43,175 bases of DNA from Bacteroidota bacterium. GTDB lineage: Bacteria; Bacteroidota; Bacteroidia; 2-12-FULL-35-15. The DNA lies in contig JANYDQ010000324.1 in the NCBI GenBank assembly GCA_025363555.1, positions 1 to 43,175 on the forward strand, given 5' to 3'. Numbering within the stretch: the stretch's first letter is position 1; the number at the start of each line of letters is the position of its first letter. Positions 1,946 to 43,173 of this stretch are shown in pieces. The translations under genes and the position numbers were made by a program. A model generated the notes under the pieces. It did not search any database. It saw only the letters and a program-made list of their open reading frames with translations, and was not told the origin of the DNA.

Positions 1946-2989
1946 TTATTCTATGATATAAGGATAATCTTCCTGGTTATAAACATCTTTATAAAGCTCG
2001 TCAATGGTTGGGTACGGAGAATCTTCAGCAAACTTTACACATTCCGCCACCAAATCTTCTACTCTCTTTTCGATGGCTTCCACATCAGAATCGTTAGCCC
2101 AGTTATTTTTTTTGATGATTGCCAATACCTTTTCAATCGGGTCCTGTGCTTGGTATTCTTTCACTTCATCTTTTGTACGGTAAGTCTGTGCATCGCTCAT
2201 CGAATGTCCTTTGTAGCGATACGTTTTCATTTCCAACAATGTTGGTCCATCTCCTTTTCTTGCCCTGTTAACTGCTTCTTCTATCGCTTCATGAACGGCT
2301 TCACACGTCATTCCATCCACTGCTTTAGAAGGCATATCATAACTCAACCCTATTTTATATAAATCATGAACATTGGAAGTACGCTCCACGGAAGTACCCA
2401 TTGCATAATTATTATTTTCAATAATAAAAATAACAGGCAGCTTCCAAAGCATTGCCATATTAAATGTTTCGTGCAATGCTCCCTGGCGGACGGCTCCATC
2501 TCCCATATAACAAAGTGTTACATTATCATTGCCATTGTATTTATCGGCAAAAGCAATACCCGCGCCCAGAGGAATTTGTCCTCCAACAATGCCATGTCCG
2601 CCAAAGAAATTAAACTCTTTTGAAAACATGTGCATGGAGCCTCCTTTGCCTTTAGAGCAACCTGTAGTTTTTGCAAACAGTTCTGCCATAATAAATTTAG
2701 GGTGCAAACCCCTTCCGATAGGGTGGGCATGGCACCGGTAGGCAGTAATAACCCGGTCATCTTTCTTTAATACCGACTCCGAACCCGCTACCAACGCTTC
2801 CTGCCCGATATATAAATGACAGAACCCACGTATCTTTTGCTGAATATATAATTGCCCGGTTTTTTCTTCAAACTTGCGCATCAACAGCATGGATTCATAC
2901 CATTTCATGTACGTTTCTTTGCTGAAACCACCGCCTGGTTTCTTTTCAACTGATGCTGACTTTTTTTCTTTTGTTGCCACTTTGTCCAT
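1946..2989 (-). CDS. pdhA: Pyruvate dehydrogenase E1 component, alpha subunit
   Basis: Thiamine diphosphate-dependent decarboxylase subunit that oxidises pyruvate and acetylates the E2 lipoyl group. The 347-residue protein has the TPP/magnesium motif starting at GDG (163-165) and ending at the NNN near 192-194, and the conserved YRYKGHSMSD loop near the E2-facing channel. The first 20 residues are Lys/Ser-rich and precede the conserved core, which begins near residue 23. It is of the heterotetrameric alpha/beta type, so an E1-beta subunit must be encoded elsewhere. It is first in a two-gene minus-strand operon with the E2 gene. A -7-like box upstream (3010-3017) gives a plausible promoter. 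Confidence 0.95.
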   Translation of the reverse strand: MDKVATKEKKSASVEKKPGGGFSKETYMKWYESMLLMRKFEEKTGQLYIQQKIRGFCHLYIGQEALVAGSESVLKKDDRVITAYRCHAHPIGRGLHPKFIMAELFAKTTGCSKGKGGSMHMFSKEFNFFGGHGIVGGQIPLGAGIAFADKYNGNDNVTLCYMGDGAVRQGALHETFNMAMLWKLPVIFIIENNNYAMGTSVERTSNVHDLYKIGLSYDMPSKAVDGMTCEAVHEAIEEAVNRARKGDGPTLLEMKTYRYKGHSMSDAQTYRTKDEVKEYQAQDPIEKVLAIIKKNNWANDSDVEAIEKRVEDLVAECVKFAEDSPYPTIDELYKDVYNQEDYPYIIE

Positions 2990-3009
2990 TGTTATCTTTT
3001 TTTGCGAAG

Positions 3010-3017
3010 CAAATTTA
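3010..3017 (-). promoter_or_regulatory. Candidate -7 box for the pdhA-pdhC operon
   Basis: Read on the minus strand this is TAAATTTG, matching the Bacteroidota -7 consensus TAnnTTTG, 20 bases upstream of the pdhA start. No clear TTG -33 element is visible at the expected distance, so the call rests on the -7 box and its position. Confidence 0.45.
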
Positions 3018-3045
3018 CAATAAATAATATTATGTAGTGTTTCTT

Positions 3046-3534
3046 TTATTTCTTCAATTCCGCTGCAACAAACATAAACGGCAACAAATCGGAGATGCTG
3101 TTCATGATTCTAATCTTTCCTGTTTCACCTTGCAGTATTATCCTGATATTTGATTTATATCTCATTTCGTATTCGCTCATTGCCTGCCGACAAGCACCAC
3201 ATGGTGAAAGTGGTTGGTTTACTAAAAAGAATTTTGATTTACAGGTGATGGCAATTGTTTTTATTTTGACATTGGGATAGCTTGCTCCTGCTGAAAAAAT
3301 GGCAACCCTTTCGGCACATAAGCCGGACGGAAATGCTGCATTTTCCTGGTTGTTTCCGCAAACTGTTATTCCGTTTTCTAAGAGGATGGCAGCACCTACA
3401 AAAAAATGGGAATAGGGAGCATATGCTAAACTACATGATTGATGAGCTTTTTGCATCAAGGCTTTTTCCTGTTCGTTTAATTCATTTTCATTTTCTAACT
3501 CTGTATAAGATATTTTAAGTTCCAGGTTTTGCAT
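3046..3534 (-). CDS. cdd: Cytidine deaminase
   Basis: Zinc enzyme of pyrimidine salvage that converts cytidine or deoxycytidine to uridine or deoxyuridine. The 162-residue protein has the two zinc motifs of the family: CAE (Cys73, Glu75 as proton shuttle) and PCGAC (Cys112, Cys115). Three Cys ligands indicate the small homotetrameric class rather than the E. coli dimeric class with a His ligand. The N-terminal 25 residues are an acidic extension not needed for the fold. The stop is 57 bases from the pdhA start on the same strand; it may be a separate unit because a promoter-like box lies between. Confidence 0.93.
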   Translation of the reverse strand: MQNLELKISYTELENENELNEQEKALMQKAHQSCSLAYAPYSHFFVGAAILLENGITVCGNNQENAAFPSGLCAERVAIFSAGASYPNVKIKTIAITCKSKFFLVNQPLSPCGACRQAMSEYEMRYKSNIRIILQGETGKIRIMNSISDLLPFMFVAAELKK

Positions 3535-39608: not shown

Positions 39609-39773
39609 AAATTGGATTTCGGGCTTACTGTTTACAATGGTTTCGGGGCAGAAATGCGTTTTCGTAAAACGGTTGATGTGCCCGATTATCTCATCCGTTA
39701 CTTTTACATCCGCAAACAAGTCGTTCTTTTTATAACTGAAAACCTCCGCGAACTTTCGTGATACAATCATAAA

Positions 39774-39798
39774 GGTAACTACATACCTGTTACAGCAG
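39774..39798 (+). repeat. Left terminal inverted repeat of the IS1595-type element
   Basis: 25 bases matching the reverse complement of 43149-43173 with one mismatch (C at 39782 against T). Confidence 0.88.
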
Positions 39799-39882
39799 AC
39801 TGACCATAAATATCACAAAACCAATAAACTACACTTATTTTTAATATATTACATTTAGAATTATTATTATTATTATTTTGTG

Positions 39883-39890
39883 TACCTTTG
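39883..39890 (+). promoter_or_regulatory. Candidate -7 box for the first passenger module
   Basis: TACCTTTG matches TAnnTTTG, 138 bases before the 40029 ATG. No -33 TTG is clear. The long leader contains 7-bp inverted pairs at 39909-39915/39937-39943 and 39967-39973/39981-39987. Confidence 0.4.
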
Positions 39891-39966
39891 TGTCGTAGAA
39901 ACATTTTTAACTACTGAAAATCACACCGCATCGGATAGTAGTTCCCTGTAACCACAAACAAAATGG

Positions 39967-39987
39967 AATATTATTTGATATAATATT
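39967..39987 (+). promoter_or_regulatory. Inverted repeat upstream of the first HicB-like gene
   Basis: Arms AATATTA (39967-39973) and TAATATT (39981-39987) with a 7-base centre, 41 bases before the ATG at 40029. The position would suit an autoregulatory operator; its AT richness makes chance occurrence possible. Confidence 0.35.
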
Positions 39988-40028
39988 TTAGGGAAACATC
40001 ATTTACATTTACAAATAAATCGGTAACA

Positions 40029-40385
40029 ATGACAACTTACAATAAAAAACCAGCGTCTTTAGAAATTATCACCAACAAAAAAGGTGATGTATCTATTTCT
40101 ATTGAATATTTAACTCTGAAAAAGCAAGATGAAAAAGGGTATTATATACAATGTCCCTCTTTAAAAACTATTGGATTTTCTGCGGTAAATTTTGAAGAAG
40201 CAGAAAAAGACCACGAAAAAGATTTGGATGTTTTTATAAAAGTTCATTTAAAAAGAAAAACGCTTCATTCTGCCCTAAAATCTTTAGGATGGGAGGAAAT
40301 AAAAGATAATAATTTCAGTAATGAAAGCATCCCGTCTTATTTACTGCCCAGAACTAAGGTGAACTCCGCATTGATTACCTGTTAA
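40029..40385 (+). CDS. HicB-like antitoxin-type protein, first passenger module
   Basis: The 118-residue protein resembles the HicB partial RNase H-like fold: a two-strand start (VSISIEYLTLK), then YYIQCPSLKTIGFSA, a helix rich in Glu/Lys (EEAEKDHEKDLDVFIKVH) and an ending ALKSLGWEE that is characteristic of Bacteroidota HicB-like proteins. No DNA-binding domain is obvious at its C-terminus. The next gene starts 6 bases after its stop, forming a two-gene unit like an antitoxin-toxin pair, but the partner is not a clear HicA. Confidence 0.55.
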   Translation: MTTYNKKPASLEIITNKKGDVSISIEYLTLKKQDEKGYYIQCPSLKTIGFSAVNFEEAEKDHEKDLDVFIKVHLKRKTLHSALKSLGWEEIKDNNFSNESIPSYLLPRTKVNSALITC

Positions 40386-40391
40386 TTTTAA

Positions 40392-40631
40392 ATGGATTTC
40401 GCTAAAAGCACCGTAGAAAACTTCATAATTAATTATGGAGGGGATGACATAGAATTAATGAAAGATATTGAAGGGTGTGATGTTTGGATACTTCAAAACG
40501 GAATAACAATAAAATTACCAAGCGATAATTCAAGAATCCCCGAAGCTCAAGTCAGTCTTATTTCTGAAGTTAAATTAGACCTTCATCAATGGGAGTACGA
40601 CTATTGGCTCGGAAATAACACCCCACATTAA
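40392..40631 (+). CDS. Small protein of unknown family, partner of the first HicB-like gene
   Basis: The 79-residue acidic protein is not recognised. It reads as helix (about 4-14), two short strands around VWILQNGITIKLP, then a long helix ending in HQWEYDYWLG. The start codon follows the HicB-like stop by 6 bases, so translation is probably coupled. A HicA-type toxin would show a GSHH motif, which is absent. By position it could be the toxin, or an immunity or regulatory partner. A 7-bp hairpin (40642-40660) follows its stop. Confidence 0.55.
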   Translation: MDFAKSTVENFIINYGGDDIELMKDIEGCDVWILQNGITIKLPSDNSRIPEAQVSLISEVKLDLHQWEYDYWLGNNTPH

Positions 40632-40641
40632 AATCAACTCC

Positions 40642-40660
40642 TTTACTGTAACGCAGTAAA
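40642..40660 (+). terminator. Hairpin after the first passenger module
   Basis: Arms TTTACTG (40642-40648) and CAGTAAA (40654-40660) with loop TAACG, 11 bases after the 79-residue gene. No immediate U-run, so it could be a terminator or an operator for the next promoter. Confidence 0.4.
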
Positions 40661-40681
40661 ATATGCAATTGTTTATAACTT

Positions 40682-40715
40682 TTTTGTTATACATTGTAAA
40701 ACATTTGTATCTTTG
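40682..40715 (+). promoter_or_regulatory. Promoter of the RHH-transposase unit, with an embedded repeat
   Basis: TTG at 40684-40686, 21 bases, then TATCTTTG at 40708-40715. The ATG of the RHH gene at 40723 is only 8 bases after the -7 box, so the transcript would be almost leaderless. The octamer GTAAAACA at 40696-40703 lies between the two promoter boxes. Confidence 0.65.
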
Positions 40716-40722
40716 TACCCGA

Positions 40723-40863
40723 ATGAAGAACGAAAATATAAATATCAGAGTAGAAAAAAAATTGAAAGACAAGCTACAAGCTATGGCTGACAAGGATAAT
40801 AGGACGCTATCAAATTTTATAGAGATGCAATTAATAAAACTTACAGAAACTAAAAAACAGTAA
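40723..40863 (+). CDS. Ribbon-helix-helix DNA-binding protein
   Basis: A 46-residue protein starting at the ATG at 40723; a longer frame from 40663 would put its N-terminus across the promoter. The NINIRVEKKLKDKLQAMADK start and the DNRTLSNFIEMQL helix are a typical Arc/CopG ribbon-helix-helix pattern, which binds DNA as a dimer. It is the first gene of the transposase unit. The octamer GTAAAACA lies in its own promoter and twice just upstream of the transposase (40886-40893 and 40906-40913), a candidate binding site for this protein. Confidence 0.7.
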   Translation: MKNENINIRVEKKLKDKLQAMADKDNRTLSNFIEMQLIKLTETKKQ

Positions 40864-40885
40864 GAATATATTTTTTACCCATAAT

Positions 40886-40913
40886 GTAAAACAAAATACA
40901 ACAAAGTAAAACA
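40886..40913 (+). promoter_or_regulatory. Paired GTAAAACA octamers upstream of the transposase gene
   Basis: Two identical octamers at 40886-40893 and 40906-40913, 20 bases apart (two helical turns), end 10 bases before the transposase ATG. A third copy is in the RHH promoter. Direct repeats at helical spacing suit cooperative binding by a ribbon-helix-helix protein (inference). Confidence 0.5.
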
Positions 40914-40923
40914 AAAAAATAAA

Positions 40924-41847
40924 ATGAAAACATTCAAATCAATATTAGAATTTCAAAAGCACTTTGATACAGATGTAAAGTGCAGATTATTTTTAGAGCA
41001 ACAAAGGTGGGGAGATACCCCTGCTTGTTGTTTCTGTGGCTCTGTAAACTGCACACGCATTAAAGAAGGCAAACGTTTTCAATGCAACGAAAAAGAATGT
41101 AGGAAACAATTTTCTGTAACAGTTGGAACAATTTACGAAAACACAAAAATACCTTTAACTAAATGGTTTTACGCAACCTATATTTTATCTAATCACAGTA
41201 AAGGTATTTCGTCTTTACAACTTGCTTCATGGTTAGATGTAACACAAAAAACAGCGTGGTATTTAAACCACAGAATACGCAAAATGCTGACAGAAAACGC
41301 ACCCGATTTATTAGAGGGCATTGTTGAGGTAGATGAAACCTACGTTGGTGGGAAAGAAACAAACAAGCATAAAAGTAAAAGAACTGTAAAAGCGGGTGCA
41401 GGTGGTAAAACTATGGTATTTGGGGTGGTTCAAAGAAATGGTAAAGTGAATACAAAAGTTATTCCCGATACAACTACTGAAACGCTTGTTGGTGCAGTTG
41501 AAGAAAATGTTGCAGAGGGCAGCATTATGGTATCTGACGAGCACAAAAGCTATCTACCATTAAAAAAGAAGTACAAACACGCACGAATTAACCACAGTTC
41601 GGGCGAATATGTAAGGGGTGCAGCCCATACCAATACAATCGAAGGTTTTTGGAGTTTGTTAAAACGTCAAATTGTAGGAATACACCATAGCGTTTCACCA
41701 AAGCACCTACAAAGGTATTGCAACGAAGCAACATATAGATATAACAGCAGACTAATAACACAGGATTTGCGGTTTGCGAATGCTTTAGCTAATATAGAAG
41801 GGAAATTACCATACAGCGTACTAATTAAAAAACCAACAACAATATGA
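40924..41847 (+). CDS. IS1595 family (ISXO2-like) transposase
   Basis: The 307-residue transposase has an N-terminal zinc ribbon with paired cysteines (CCFCG and, later, CNEKEC, about 34-60), a helical middle part, and an ISXO2-like catalytic domain with Asp in VDETYVGG, Asp in SDEHKSY and a closing HTNTIEGFWSLLKR, which carries the Asn and Glu candidates for the third catalytic position. It appears complete, with no frameshift. Its stop overlaps the XRE gene start (ATGA), so the two are translationally coupled. It should act on the 25-bp inverted repeats at 39774 and 43173. Confidence 0.92.
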   Translation: MKTFKSILEFQKHFDTDVKCRLFLEQQRWGDTPACCFCGSVNCTRIKEGKRFQCNEKECRKQFSVTVGTIYENTKIPLTKWFYATYILSNHSKGISSLQLASWLDVTQKTAWYLNHRIRKMLTENAPDLLEGIVEVDETYVGGKETNKHKSKRTVKAGAGGKTMVFGVVQRNGKVNTKVIPDTTTETLVGAVEENVAEGSIMVSDEHKSYLPLKKKYKHARINHSSGEYVRGAAHTNTIEGFWSLLKRQIVGIHHSVSPKHLQRYCNEATYRYNSRLITQDLRFANALANIEGKLPYSVLIKKPTTI

Positions 41848-42053
41848 GCAACAAAGAATATTTAAAAGCAATAGGAATGGAGGTTAGAGTAGCCCGAATA
41901 AGAAAAGGGCTATCTACTCCACAGCTTGCAAAATTAACAGGTTTGTCAAAAGCTGCAATAAATGAGTTGGAATTAGGCAAAAATAATTTTCAAATTCTTA
42001 CCTTAAAAAGAATTGCAGACGTTTTAGAGATACCAGTAAGTGATTTTTTGTAA
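41844..42053 (+). CDS. XRE-family helix-turn-helix protein
   Basis: The 69-residue protein is a lone lambda-repressor-like domain: GMEVRVARIRKGLSTPQLAK, TGLSKAAINELELGKNN and LKRIADVLEIPVSDFL give the five-helix pattern. The start overlaps the transposase stop by 4 bases. A coupled XRE regulator suggests control of transposase or element expression; the direct target is unknown. Confidence 0.85.
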   Translation: MSNKEYLKAIGMEVRVARIRKGLSTPQLAKLTGLSKAAINELELGKNNFQILTLKRIADVLEIPVSDFL

Positions 42054-42062
42054 TTTTGCAGA

Positions 42063-42191
42063 ATGACAAAAGACAAAAAATCTCCCGAAAAAACCGCGTC
42101 TATATTTGAGGCAATTATGAAGGCTTCAGTAAGTGGCAACCCTAAGCCAAAAGCCAAAAAGAAGAAATCCTCCAAAAAACGCAAGGCATAG
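42063..42191 (+). CDS. Small basic protein of 42 residues
   Basis: An ATG at 42063, 9 bases after the XRE stop, opens a 42-residue frame that ends at TAG (42189-42191). The N-terminal half is amphipathic (KTASIFEAIMKASVSG); the C-terminal half is very basic (KPKAKKKKSSKKRKA), suited to binding DNA or RNA. No family recognised. The tight spacing after the transposase and XRE genes makes it probable that it is translated as the third gene of that unit. Confidence 0.6.
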   Translation: MTKDKKSPEKTASIFEAIMKASVSGNPKPKAKKKKSSKKRKA

Positions 42192-42254
42192 TCTTAGCCA
42201 AATTTATATAACCTTTTTGTGTAATTATGTAATGTTTTCGGGAGGTTAAGCGCA

Positions 42255-42262
42255 TATCTTTG
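42255..42262 (+). promoter_or_regulatory. Candidate upstream -7 box before the second passenger module
   Basis: TATCTTTG matches TAnnTTTG. No -33 TTG at suitable distance. It lies 131 bases upstream of the better promoter at 42362-42393 and could start a longer transcript. Confidence 0.35.
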
Positions 42263-42361
42263 TATTAAGTAATCAACAAAATGTTAATAAAAAAAACTGC
42301 ATATTTTGGGCATAAATATTGCGTATGTGAACTATTTTATTATTAAATATTTAAGTAAAAG

Positions 42362-42393
42362 TTGATTTTGTTAGAGTAATTCAATTATATTTG
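42362..42393 (+). promoter_or_regulatory. Promoter of the second passenger module
   Basis: TTG at 42362-42364, 21 bases, then TATATTTG at 42386-42393. The predicted start of transcription falls at the left arm of the palindrome 42396-42419, so a protein bound there would block initiation. Confidence 0.65.
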
Positions 42394-42395
42394 TG

Positions 42396-42419
42396 CGTTC
42401 GTATAAAATTATACGAACG
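42396..42419 (+). promoter_or_regulatory. 24-bp near-perfect palindrome at the module's transcription start
   Basis: Arms CGTTCGTATAA (42396-42406) and TTATACGAACG (42409-42419) pair perfectly around a 2-base centre. Its position directly after the -7 box is that of an operator, and the module's own proteins are the first candidates to bind it. It could also form a strong leader hairpin. Confidence 0.75.
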
Positions 42420-42447
42420 AAAATAAACAAACAAAAACCTAAAAGCG

Positions 42448-42741
42448 ATGGAAACCAATAACAAACAAGGCTTTTTACCAATGGTAAAAAGTCACCTAAC
42501 AGGAGTGTTCGTAAAAGAACACGATGGTAGATTTACAGCGTTTTTTTCAGAAATACCTGAGGCTACCGCCCAAGGTGATACTATGGAGGAGGCAGAAGTA
42601 AATTTATTTAACATATTGCCTGATGTGTTAGAATTTAAAAACGACATTACCAATGAAGAAAAAATTATTAATGGAATGTCAGAAGAATCTATTCAAAGAA
42701 AGTCGTACAATTTTCAGTTGGGCAGTTACGCAACAAGATGA
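42448..42741 (+). CDS. HicB-like antitoxin-type protein, second passenger module
   Basis: The 97-residue protein has a HicB-like core: LTGVFVKEHDGRFTAFFSEI (two strands), then EATAQGDTMEEAEVNLFNIL with the TxEEAxxN helix typical of HicB proteins. There is no separate C-terminal helix-turn-helix. The last codons overlap the next start (ATGA at 42738-42741), so the pair is translationally coupled. The order is HicB first, then the HicA-like gene, the less common order. It is preceded by a promoter with a palindrome. Confidence 0.7.
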   Translation: METNNKQGFLPMVKSHLTGVFVKEHDGRFTAFFSEIPEATAQGDTMEEAEVNLFNILPDVLEFKNDITNEEKIINGMSEESIQRKSYNFQLGSYATR

Positions 42742-43052
42742 AACAATTAGATGTATTAGACTATGTCTTGTTGCTGGGGCACAATTGTTATAACTACAAG
42801 ACGAAGGATAAAGAAGACGGCACTTATTATTATATAAGAAAAAGAGATGGAGACAAGCGAAAAATAGCCATTATTTACCCCACAAAAGGCGATAGTTCTT
42901 ATACATGTGGCTCGGTTTGTAACATTTGCACATTGTTAGATGTTCCTGTTCCTGAATATGGCAAGAAAATGCAAGGGCGAATTGACAAAGCAAAAAGTGC
43001 CGCCCAAGGAATGAGTGGAGAGCAAAGCGATGAAAATAATGCCCCAAAATAA
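42738..43052 (+). CDS. HicA-like toxin-type protein, second passenger module (divergent)
   Basis: The 104-residue protein has the approximate HicA double-stranded-RNA-binding layout: helix (LDVLDYVLLLGHN), strand with DGTYYYIRKR, strand RKIAIIYP, helix CGSVCNICTLLDVPVPEY. At the spot where HicA has GSHH with the catalytic His, this protein has GTYY, so either the active residue is different or the protein is not a nuclease. Four cysteines are unusual for HicA. The tail (about 77-104) is Lys/Gln/Glu rich. It follows the HicB-like gene with a 4-base overlap. The assignment rests on layout and position, not on clear sequence identity. Confidence 0.45.
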   Translation: MKQLDVLDYVLLLGHNCYNYKTKDKEDGTYYYIRKRDGDKRKIAIIYPTKGDSSYTCGSVCNICTLLDVPVPEYGKKMQGRIDKAKSAAQGMSGEQSDENNAPK

Positions 43053-43148
43053 ATTACCTATACTTTCTTATTTTTATACCCAACAATTTTATTAGTTCCT
43101 CGATATTTTTTAATTACGCAGCCTTCTTGCAAATTTTTAAATTTACTC

Positions 43149-43173
43149 CTGCTGTAACAGGTATATAGTTACC
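43149..43173 (-). repeat. Right terminal inverted repeat of the IS1595-type element
   Basis: Inverted copy of 39774-39798 with one mismatch. Only two bases lie beyond it in the window. Confidence 0.88.

Follow-up and report, generated by a model that had tools for sequence, protein, structure and literature searches.

The window analysed here, a stretch of 43,175 nucleotides (nt) from a Bacteroidota bacterium (contig JANYDQ010000324.1 of assembly GCA_025363555.1), contains close to its right end a real IS1595-type transposon, which is bordered by two inverted repeats and extends from position 39,774 to position 43,173. The best overall explanation, which is regarded as highly probable, is that the element is a complete 3.4-kb transposon of the IS1595 family, which has its own accessory core and carries two exchangeable HicB-like gene pairs at its outer edges. 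The 3,400 bp between and including the ends contain eight open reading frames (ORFs) on the plus strand, for proteins of 118, 79, 46, 307, 69, 42, 97 and 104 amino acids (aa). The features are the following:

39774..39798, plus strand: left terminal inverted repeat, GGTAACTACATACCTGTTACAGCAG; in 29 relatives the ends are likewise paired and flanked by exact 8-bp duplications

40029..40385, plus strand: putative 118-aa HicB-like antitoxin of the left cargo module (HicB profile 4.2e-10, hhalign 95.9%)

40392..40631, plus strand: 79-aa partner in the left module, presumed to be HicA-like (position as in HicB-HicA pairs)

40723..40863, plus strand: 46-aa protein of the RHH (CopG-like) type, accessory gene of the core (Pfam RHH_1 at E 0.001, slightly short of the family cut-off)

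40924..41847, plus strand: IS1595-family transposase, 307 aa, zinc ribbon and DD(N) catalytic domain (profile matches and motifs)

41844..42053, plus strand: 69-aa XRE-family HTH protein, core accessory gene (HTH_3, 7.7e-10)

42063..42191, plus strand: 42-aa basic protein, conserved core gene (profile)

42448..42741, plus strand: putative 97-aa HicB-like antitoxin of the right cargo module (profile, hhalign 97.1%, PHROG HicB-like 0.0058)

42738..43052, plus strand: 104-aa HicA-like partner without the catalytic histidine; its gene overlaps the 97-aa gene by ATGA

43149..43173, minus strand: right terminal inverted repeat; the same sequence is present at right ends on contigs C148 and C149

The two 25-nt ends pair in inverted orientation at 24 of 25 positions (96% complementary), and no other inverted repeat of the region comes near them in quality. 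A preliminary description of the window had reported this arrangement, i.e., matching ends that enclose 3.4 kb with an intact transposase gene and seven small genes on the same strand, and it was confirmed. In the 4.3-Mb draft genome the 25-bp end occurs at element borders only, namely at two left ends, at two right ends, and at the right end of the window copy itself, and a control with the end read backwards yielded zero matches across the same 4.3 Mb. One further copy, designated copy B, has its left end on contig C344 and its right end on contig C149, and is flanked by an exact 8-bp target duplication, ACAAATTT. Joining its flanks with a single copy of the duplication gave a 221-aa frame that crosses the junction, and, therefore, the insertion had split that frame. 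Within the first 313 bp copy B differs from the window copy by a 3-bp indel and by one base, and the presence of two slightly different copies in the genome implies past movement.

The 8-bp target duplication that had been expected was thus present in copy B and in 29 relatives, but it could not be demonstrated for the window copy. The window contig stops 2 bp beyond the right repeat, where the right flanks of the assembly diverge. The left flank ends with ATCATAAA, and the sole other right flank, on C148, begins with ACTTTATT; this unpaired flank (L004/L019) and the left flank of the window copy (39743-39773) have no 8-bp duplication in common. The mismatch may result from a rearrangement, or a third copy may have remained unassembled. 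If the window copy is considered in isolation, the missing duplication would fit an alternative in which the repeats are coincidental and an ordinary short IS1595 copy lies amid unrelated host genes. However, copy B has both repeats at its ends, together with the exact duplication and the restored frame, and the paired ends of the 29 relatives enclose comparable cargo. Copy B and the relatives refute this alternative, its remaining probability is negligible, and the same observations exclude that the repeats are anything other than the borders of conserved copies, which had been named as an argument against the transposon.

The 307-aa protein was described beforehand as a complete ISXO2-like or IS1595-type transposase, and Pfam and NCBIfam agree that it is a full IS1595 protein (transpos_IS1595 of NCBIfam, 1.5e-63; DDE_Tnp_IS1595 of Pfam, 7e-46; Zn_ribbon_IS1595, 1.6e-8). 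The catalytic motifs DETY, DEH and HTN..K are intact. Three features of the IS1595 family are present, i.e., both transposase domains, the bordering terminal inverted repeats, and the 8-bp duplication of copy B and the relatives. From what is known of the family, the DDE-type transposase would bind the 25-bp ends via its zinc ribbon and would insert the element by an 8-bp staggered cut.

Genome contigs were scanned with the transposase, and each of the resulting 33 loci was searched for paired ends and a duplication (here and below, loci are numbered with the prefix L). Complete elements with duplications matching at 8 of 8 positions amount to 29 (21 found in this way, five more, and three on IMG/VR contigs); L034, which has paired ends with a 7-bp duplication match, is counted besides these. 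The lengths of the relatives range from 2.1 to 6.5 kb, and six of the 29 (L047-L049, L051-L053) come from Proteobacteria and another non-Bacteroidota record. The relatives with transposases nearest to that of the window share a nearly identical end, GGTAACTATATACCTGTTAGACCA. Of the 395 genomes in a class-wide sample, 8 had the transposase (E <= 1e-90). The search for other copies with the same cargo, which the preliminary description had suggested, was successful insofar as same-ended copies and relatives were found, but most sister elements hold other genes. In one relative, L028, the left end is doubled (region 2868-3351): 468 bp upstream of one left end of this element lies a second, which is accompanied by the same 8-bp duplication plus 7 further flanking bases. 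This doubled end looks like the remnant of an earlier insertion or of a recombination at the same target.

Clustering of ORFs across the elements was used to separate core genes from cargo genes. Homologues of the RHH protein are encoded upstream of the transposase gene in L023, L024, L034 and L062, and beside it in L064, while L022, L026 and L027 have another HTH-like protein at the upstream position instead. The XRE gene was found downstream of the transposase gene in 15 elements, and in 11 of these, including the window element (41844/41847), it overlaps the transposase stop by the 4 bp ATGA, so that the two genes are probably translation-coupled. The profile of the 42-aa basic protein (consensus KKTAKEAS..FHNIMKASVKGNPKPKKKK) matched 16 elements and, more weakly, the divergent L067; its gene can be on either strand and at varying places, and comparable small basic proteins were recognized by eye in L039, L040, L043, L044 and L064. 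Eight of the 395 class genomes matched this profile, and seven of these eight carry the transposase; as the profile was built partly from the matched genomes (six of the seven transposase carriers contributed), the informative part of this result is the absence elsewhere.

Because the RHH, XRE and 42-aa genes recur in sister elements, they belong to the machinery of the element and not to its cargo. The initial idea that these three proteins form a novel combination of passengers was, thus, not borne out, as they are recurrent core genes of the whole element clade. The XRE and RHH proteins would repress the expression of the transposase, and the 42-aa protein may be an accessory DNA-binding or regulatory factor that aids or limits transposition.

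Two further observations concern the genes around the transposase in other groups. Six elements have a divergent gene pair upstream of the transposase gene, which encodes a P63C-domain protein and a small zinc-ribbon protein that resembles the N-terminus of the transposase (L029 4517-6014; L030 4574-5963; L031; L032 4613-5918; L063 6502-7911; L065 1010-2378). The zinc-ribbon protein is possibly a regulator derived from the transposase. In addition, other IS1595 groups have a different, yet similar small basic protein, with the sequence KGSFLDIMKAAVK.. in Bacteroidota (L043, L044) and FDAVLRRMLSTPPDPK.. in Burkholderiales (L049, L051). Perhaps the small basic proteins across the IS1595 groups represent one ancient companion of the transposase.

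In contrast to the core genes, the two outer gene pairs of the window element are missing from most sister elements and are replaced there by other genes. By this comparison, only the two outer pairs are cargo, and this cargo is exchangeable. The view that this is an IS1595 form with passenger genes therefore holds for these two pairs. The cargo of several sister elements includes known defence proteins: GmrSD-type genes are present in L024 and L028 (the L028 protein matches HEC-06 at 1e-158), an MmeI/type IIG restriction enzyme in L036, PDC-M29A/B in L030, a PD-Lambda-2_B-like protein in L044, and Panacea/SocA in L041 with a homologue in L043. L032 encodes an Endonuc_Holl protein. The presence of HEC-06/GmrSD, type IIG restriction, PDC-M29A/B, PD-Lambda-2_B and Panacea would be understandable if the elements were specialised defence carriers, in which selection by phages drives the exchange of cargo, similar to a miniature mobile defence island. 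This is considered a tentative possibility, with the balance lying against it, because about 7 of 57 cargo proteins matched PADLOC families at 1e-10 and about as many of 60 flanking proteins did (families were counted, and the numbers are approximate), and because many cargo genes have no known function. An enrichment of defence genes in the cargo was, thus, tested against the flanking ORFs and dropped, as no difference was seen. Several of the genes that flank the elements match the defence families mads, DpdF and AbiEi, which suggests that some elements sit inside defence islands.

The presence of two separate HicB-like modules in the window element had already been claimed, and it was upheld for both HicB-like proteins, which are related by profile to proteins encoded beside real HicA genes. 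In the left pair, the 118-aa protein has no Pfam match; it weakly matches proteins encoded just upstream of HicA-like proteins with the motif GGHE[IK]W (L099, L100, L104, L105). A profile of the HicB proteins adjoining GGHE[IK]W HicA matches the 118-aa protein with an E value of 4.2e-10 against a 660-kb six-frame background, and with an hhalign probability of 95.9%. In the right pair, L028 encodes a relative of the 97-aa protein, and L068 encodes another beside the transposase; both genes are followed by an ATGA-overlapping homologue of the 104-aa gene. The profile of the 97-aa family matches HicB proteins in other genomes, several of which adjoin a canonical GSH HicA (L087, L088, L092; also L089), and hhalign gave a probability of 97.1% against that set. 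The profiles and the HicA genes next to the matched proteins support for both proteins, at the level of sequence, that they are HicB-type antitoxins.

Homologues of the 104-aa partner are present in L028, L068/L081 and L082 with unchanged gene order. The pair in L082 (2953-3491) is a fourth copy. A tape-measure gene is present on the phage contig that carries it, IS1595 ends are absent, and the pair is possibly a phage-borne module. Cargo without transposase and ends, which had been named as an argument against the transposon, therefore does exist for relatives of the right module, but it only shows that the module is independently mobile. The structural model of the L082 partner has a predicted local distance difference test (pLDDT) value of 70, and its best Foldseek matches were to HicA of B. 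pseudomallei, with a weak E value of 0.085. With VIA-align the six best rows were five HicA chains and the uncharacterised small protein 1whz, with Z values from 8.3 to 4.7. The match to E. coli HicA 6hpb had a Z of 8.3 and a root-mean-square deviation of 1.6 over 57 residues, and the next rows were frataxins with a Z of 4.1 and below. There is good support from this model that the right partner family has the HicA fold, which resembles a double-stranded RNA-binding domain (dsRBD); a Z of about 8 alone is not decisive, and the adjoining HicB-like gene adds to the assignment. Further searches were negative: the 104-aa protein alone had no match in any other of the 395 genomes, and its relatives appeared only via the comparison of sister elements. 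Single 97-aa and 118-aa queries detected no relatives on viral contigs, tblastn searches of plasmids with the 104-, 118- and 97-aa proteins, and of phages with the L082 partner, were without hits, and phmmer against the PDB gave chance matches only.

The two outer pairs may act as toxin-antitoxin modules, which would either penalise the loss of the element or restrict phages. In HicA proteins the histidine in the motif GSH or GGH is catalytic. Besides the missing duplication of the window copy, the similar PADLOC counts of cargo and flanks, and the origin of the basic-protein profile, several points concerning the partners weigh against the overall explanation. The catalytic histidine seems to be missing from both HicA-like partners. 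In the left partner the aligned motif is EGCDVW, compared to GGHEIW in HicA, i.e., GGH is replaced by EGC, and its sequence similarity to HicA is suggestive at most and not significant, as its score is reached by 26 of 2000 shuffles. None of the four right partner proteins has a conserved histidine, and the modelled fold is that of the L082 relative, as the 104-aa protein of the window itself reached a pLDDT of 48 and was not used for the fold search. The addiction reading is weakened because both partners seem to be without the catalytic histidine, and this is the main doubt about the toxin-antitoxin step.

The same losses, together with the strong divergence of the partners, would be expected if the transposon is real and the HicA-like partners are inactive, so that the pairs are remnants, HicB-neutralising proteins or anti-toxin proteins and not addiction modules. 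However, the frames are intact, the two genes of each pair overlap or lie almost end to end, and four contexts (window, L028, L068, L082) have kept the right pair as a two-gene unit. The retention in four separate contexts suggests selection for function, and inactivity of the partners is judged rather unlikely. The two partners, apparently without the histidine, may use another chemistry, or they may be non-toxic binders.

IS1595 elements with passengers (tIS) and toxin-antitoxin pairs in Tn3-family transposons are already known. MTnSag1 and tISCpe8 have 25-bp inverted repeats and a target duplication (PMC5704250). The window element resembles these tIS (MTnSag1/tISSag10, tISCpe8) in having a DDE transposase of the IS1595 family, terminal inverted repeats of about 25 bp, and internal passengers, and also in its case genes that are not needed for transposition, i.e., the outer pairs, lie inside the ends. 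In contrast to the tIS of PMC5704250, which are mobilizable and include tISCpe8 with lincomycin resistance, it carries HicBA-like pairs, and it has a conserved accessory core of XRE, RHH or HTH, and the 42-aa basic protein. Transposons of the Tn3 family likewise have toxin-antitoxin genes aboard (PMC7157771). They belong to another transposase family, and their pairs appear to be tied to the transposition module, whereas the pairs of the window element are at the edges and vary among relatives. The outer pairs share with HicAB type II toxin-antitoxin systems the HicB-like antitoxin by profile, the HicA-like fold in the right partner family, and the organization in two-gene units; they differ in that the antitoxin gene is first, the catalytic histidine seems to be absent from the partners, and the sequence similarity is low. 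In the literature searched for IS1595 together with defence, toxin-antitoxin and HicB, the clade, its core and the HicBA-like cargo are undescribed; the founding IS1595 paper and ISfinder were outside this search, and novelty is unproven.

A wider proposal, which is put forward with reservation and is at present more doubtful than probable, is that the Bacteroidota IS1595 clade is a cargo vehicle. It would combine a regulatory core, i.e., the transposase, a translation-coupled XRE repressor, a protein of the RHH or HTH type, and basic proteins of about 40 residues, a new family that is needed for or controls transposition, with an exchangeable slot for toxin-antitoxin or anti-phage genes, including HicA-fold partners without the histidine that act by another mechanism.

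Taken together, IS1595-type elements of Bacteroidota are more than bare insertion sequences: they form a family of compact transposons in which an accessory core is conserved and the cargo changes. Through them, defence and toxin-antitoxin genes could pass from genome to genome on units of 2-6 kb. The ends and the 42-aa protein form a sequence signature that could be used for the mining of new defence genes. The 42-aa basic proteins are a new family of small proteins whose role in transposition is directly testable, and the HicA-fold partners that have no catalytic histidine pose a puzzle of their own, which is testable as well.

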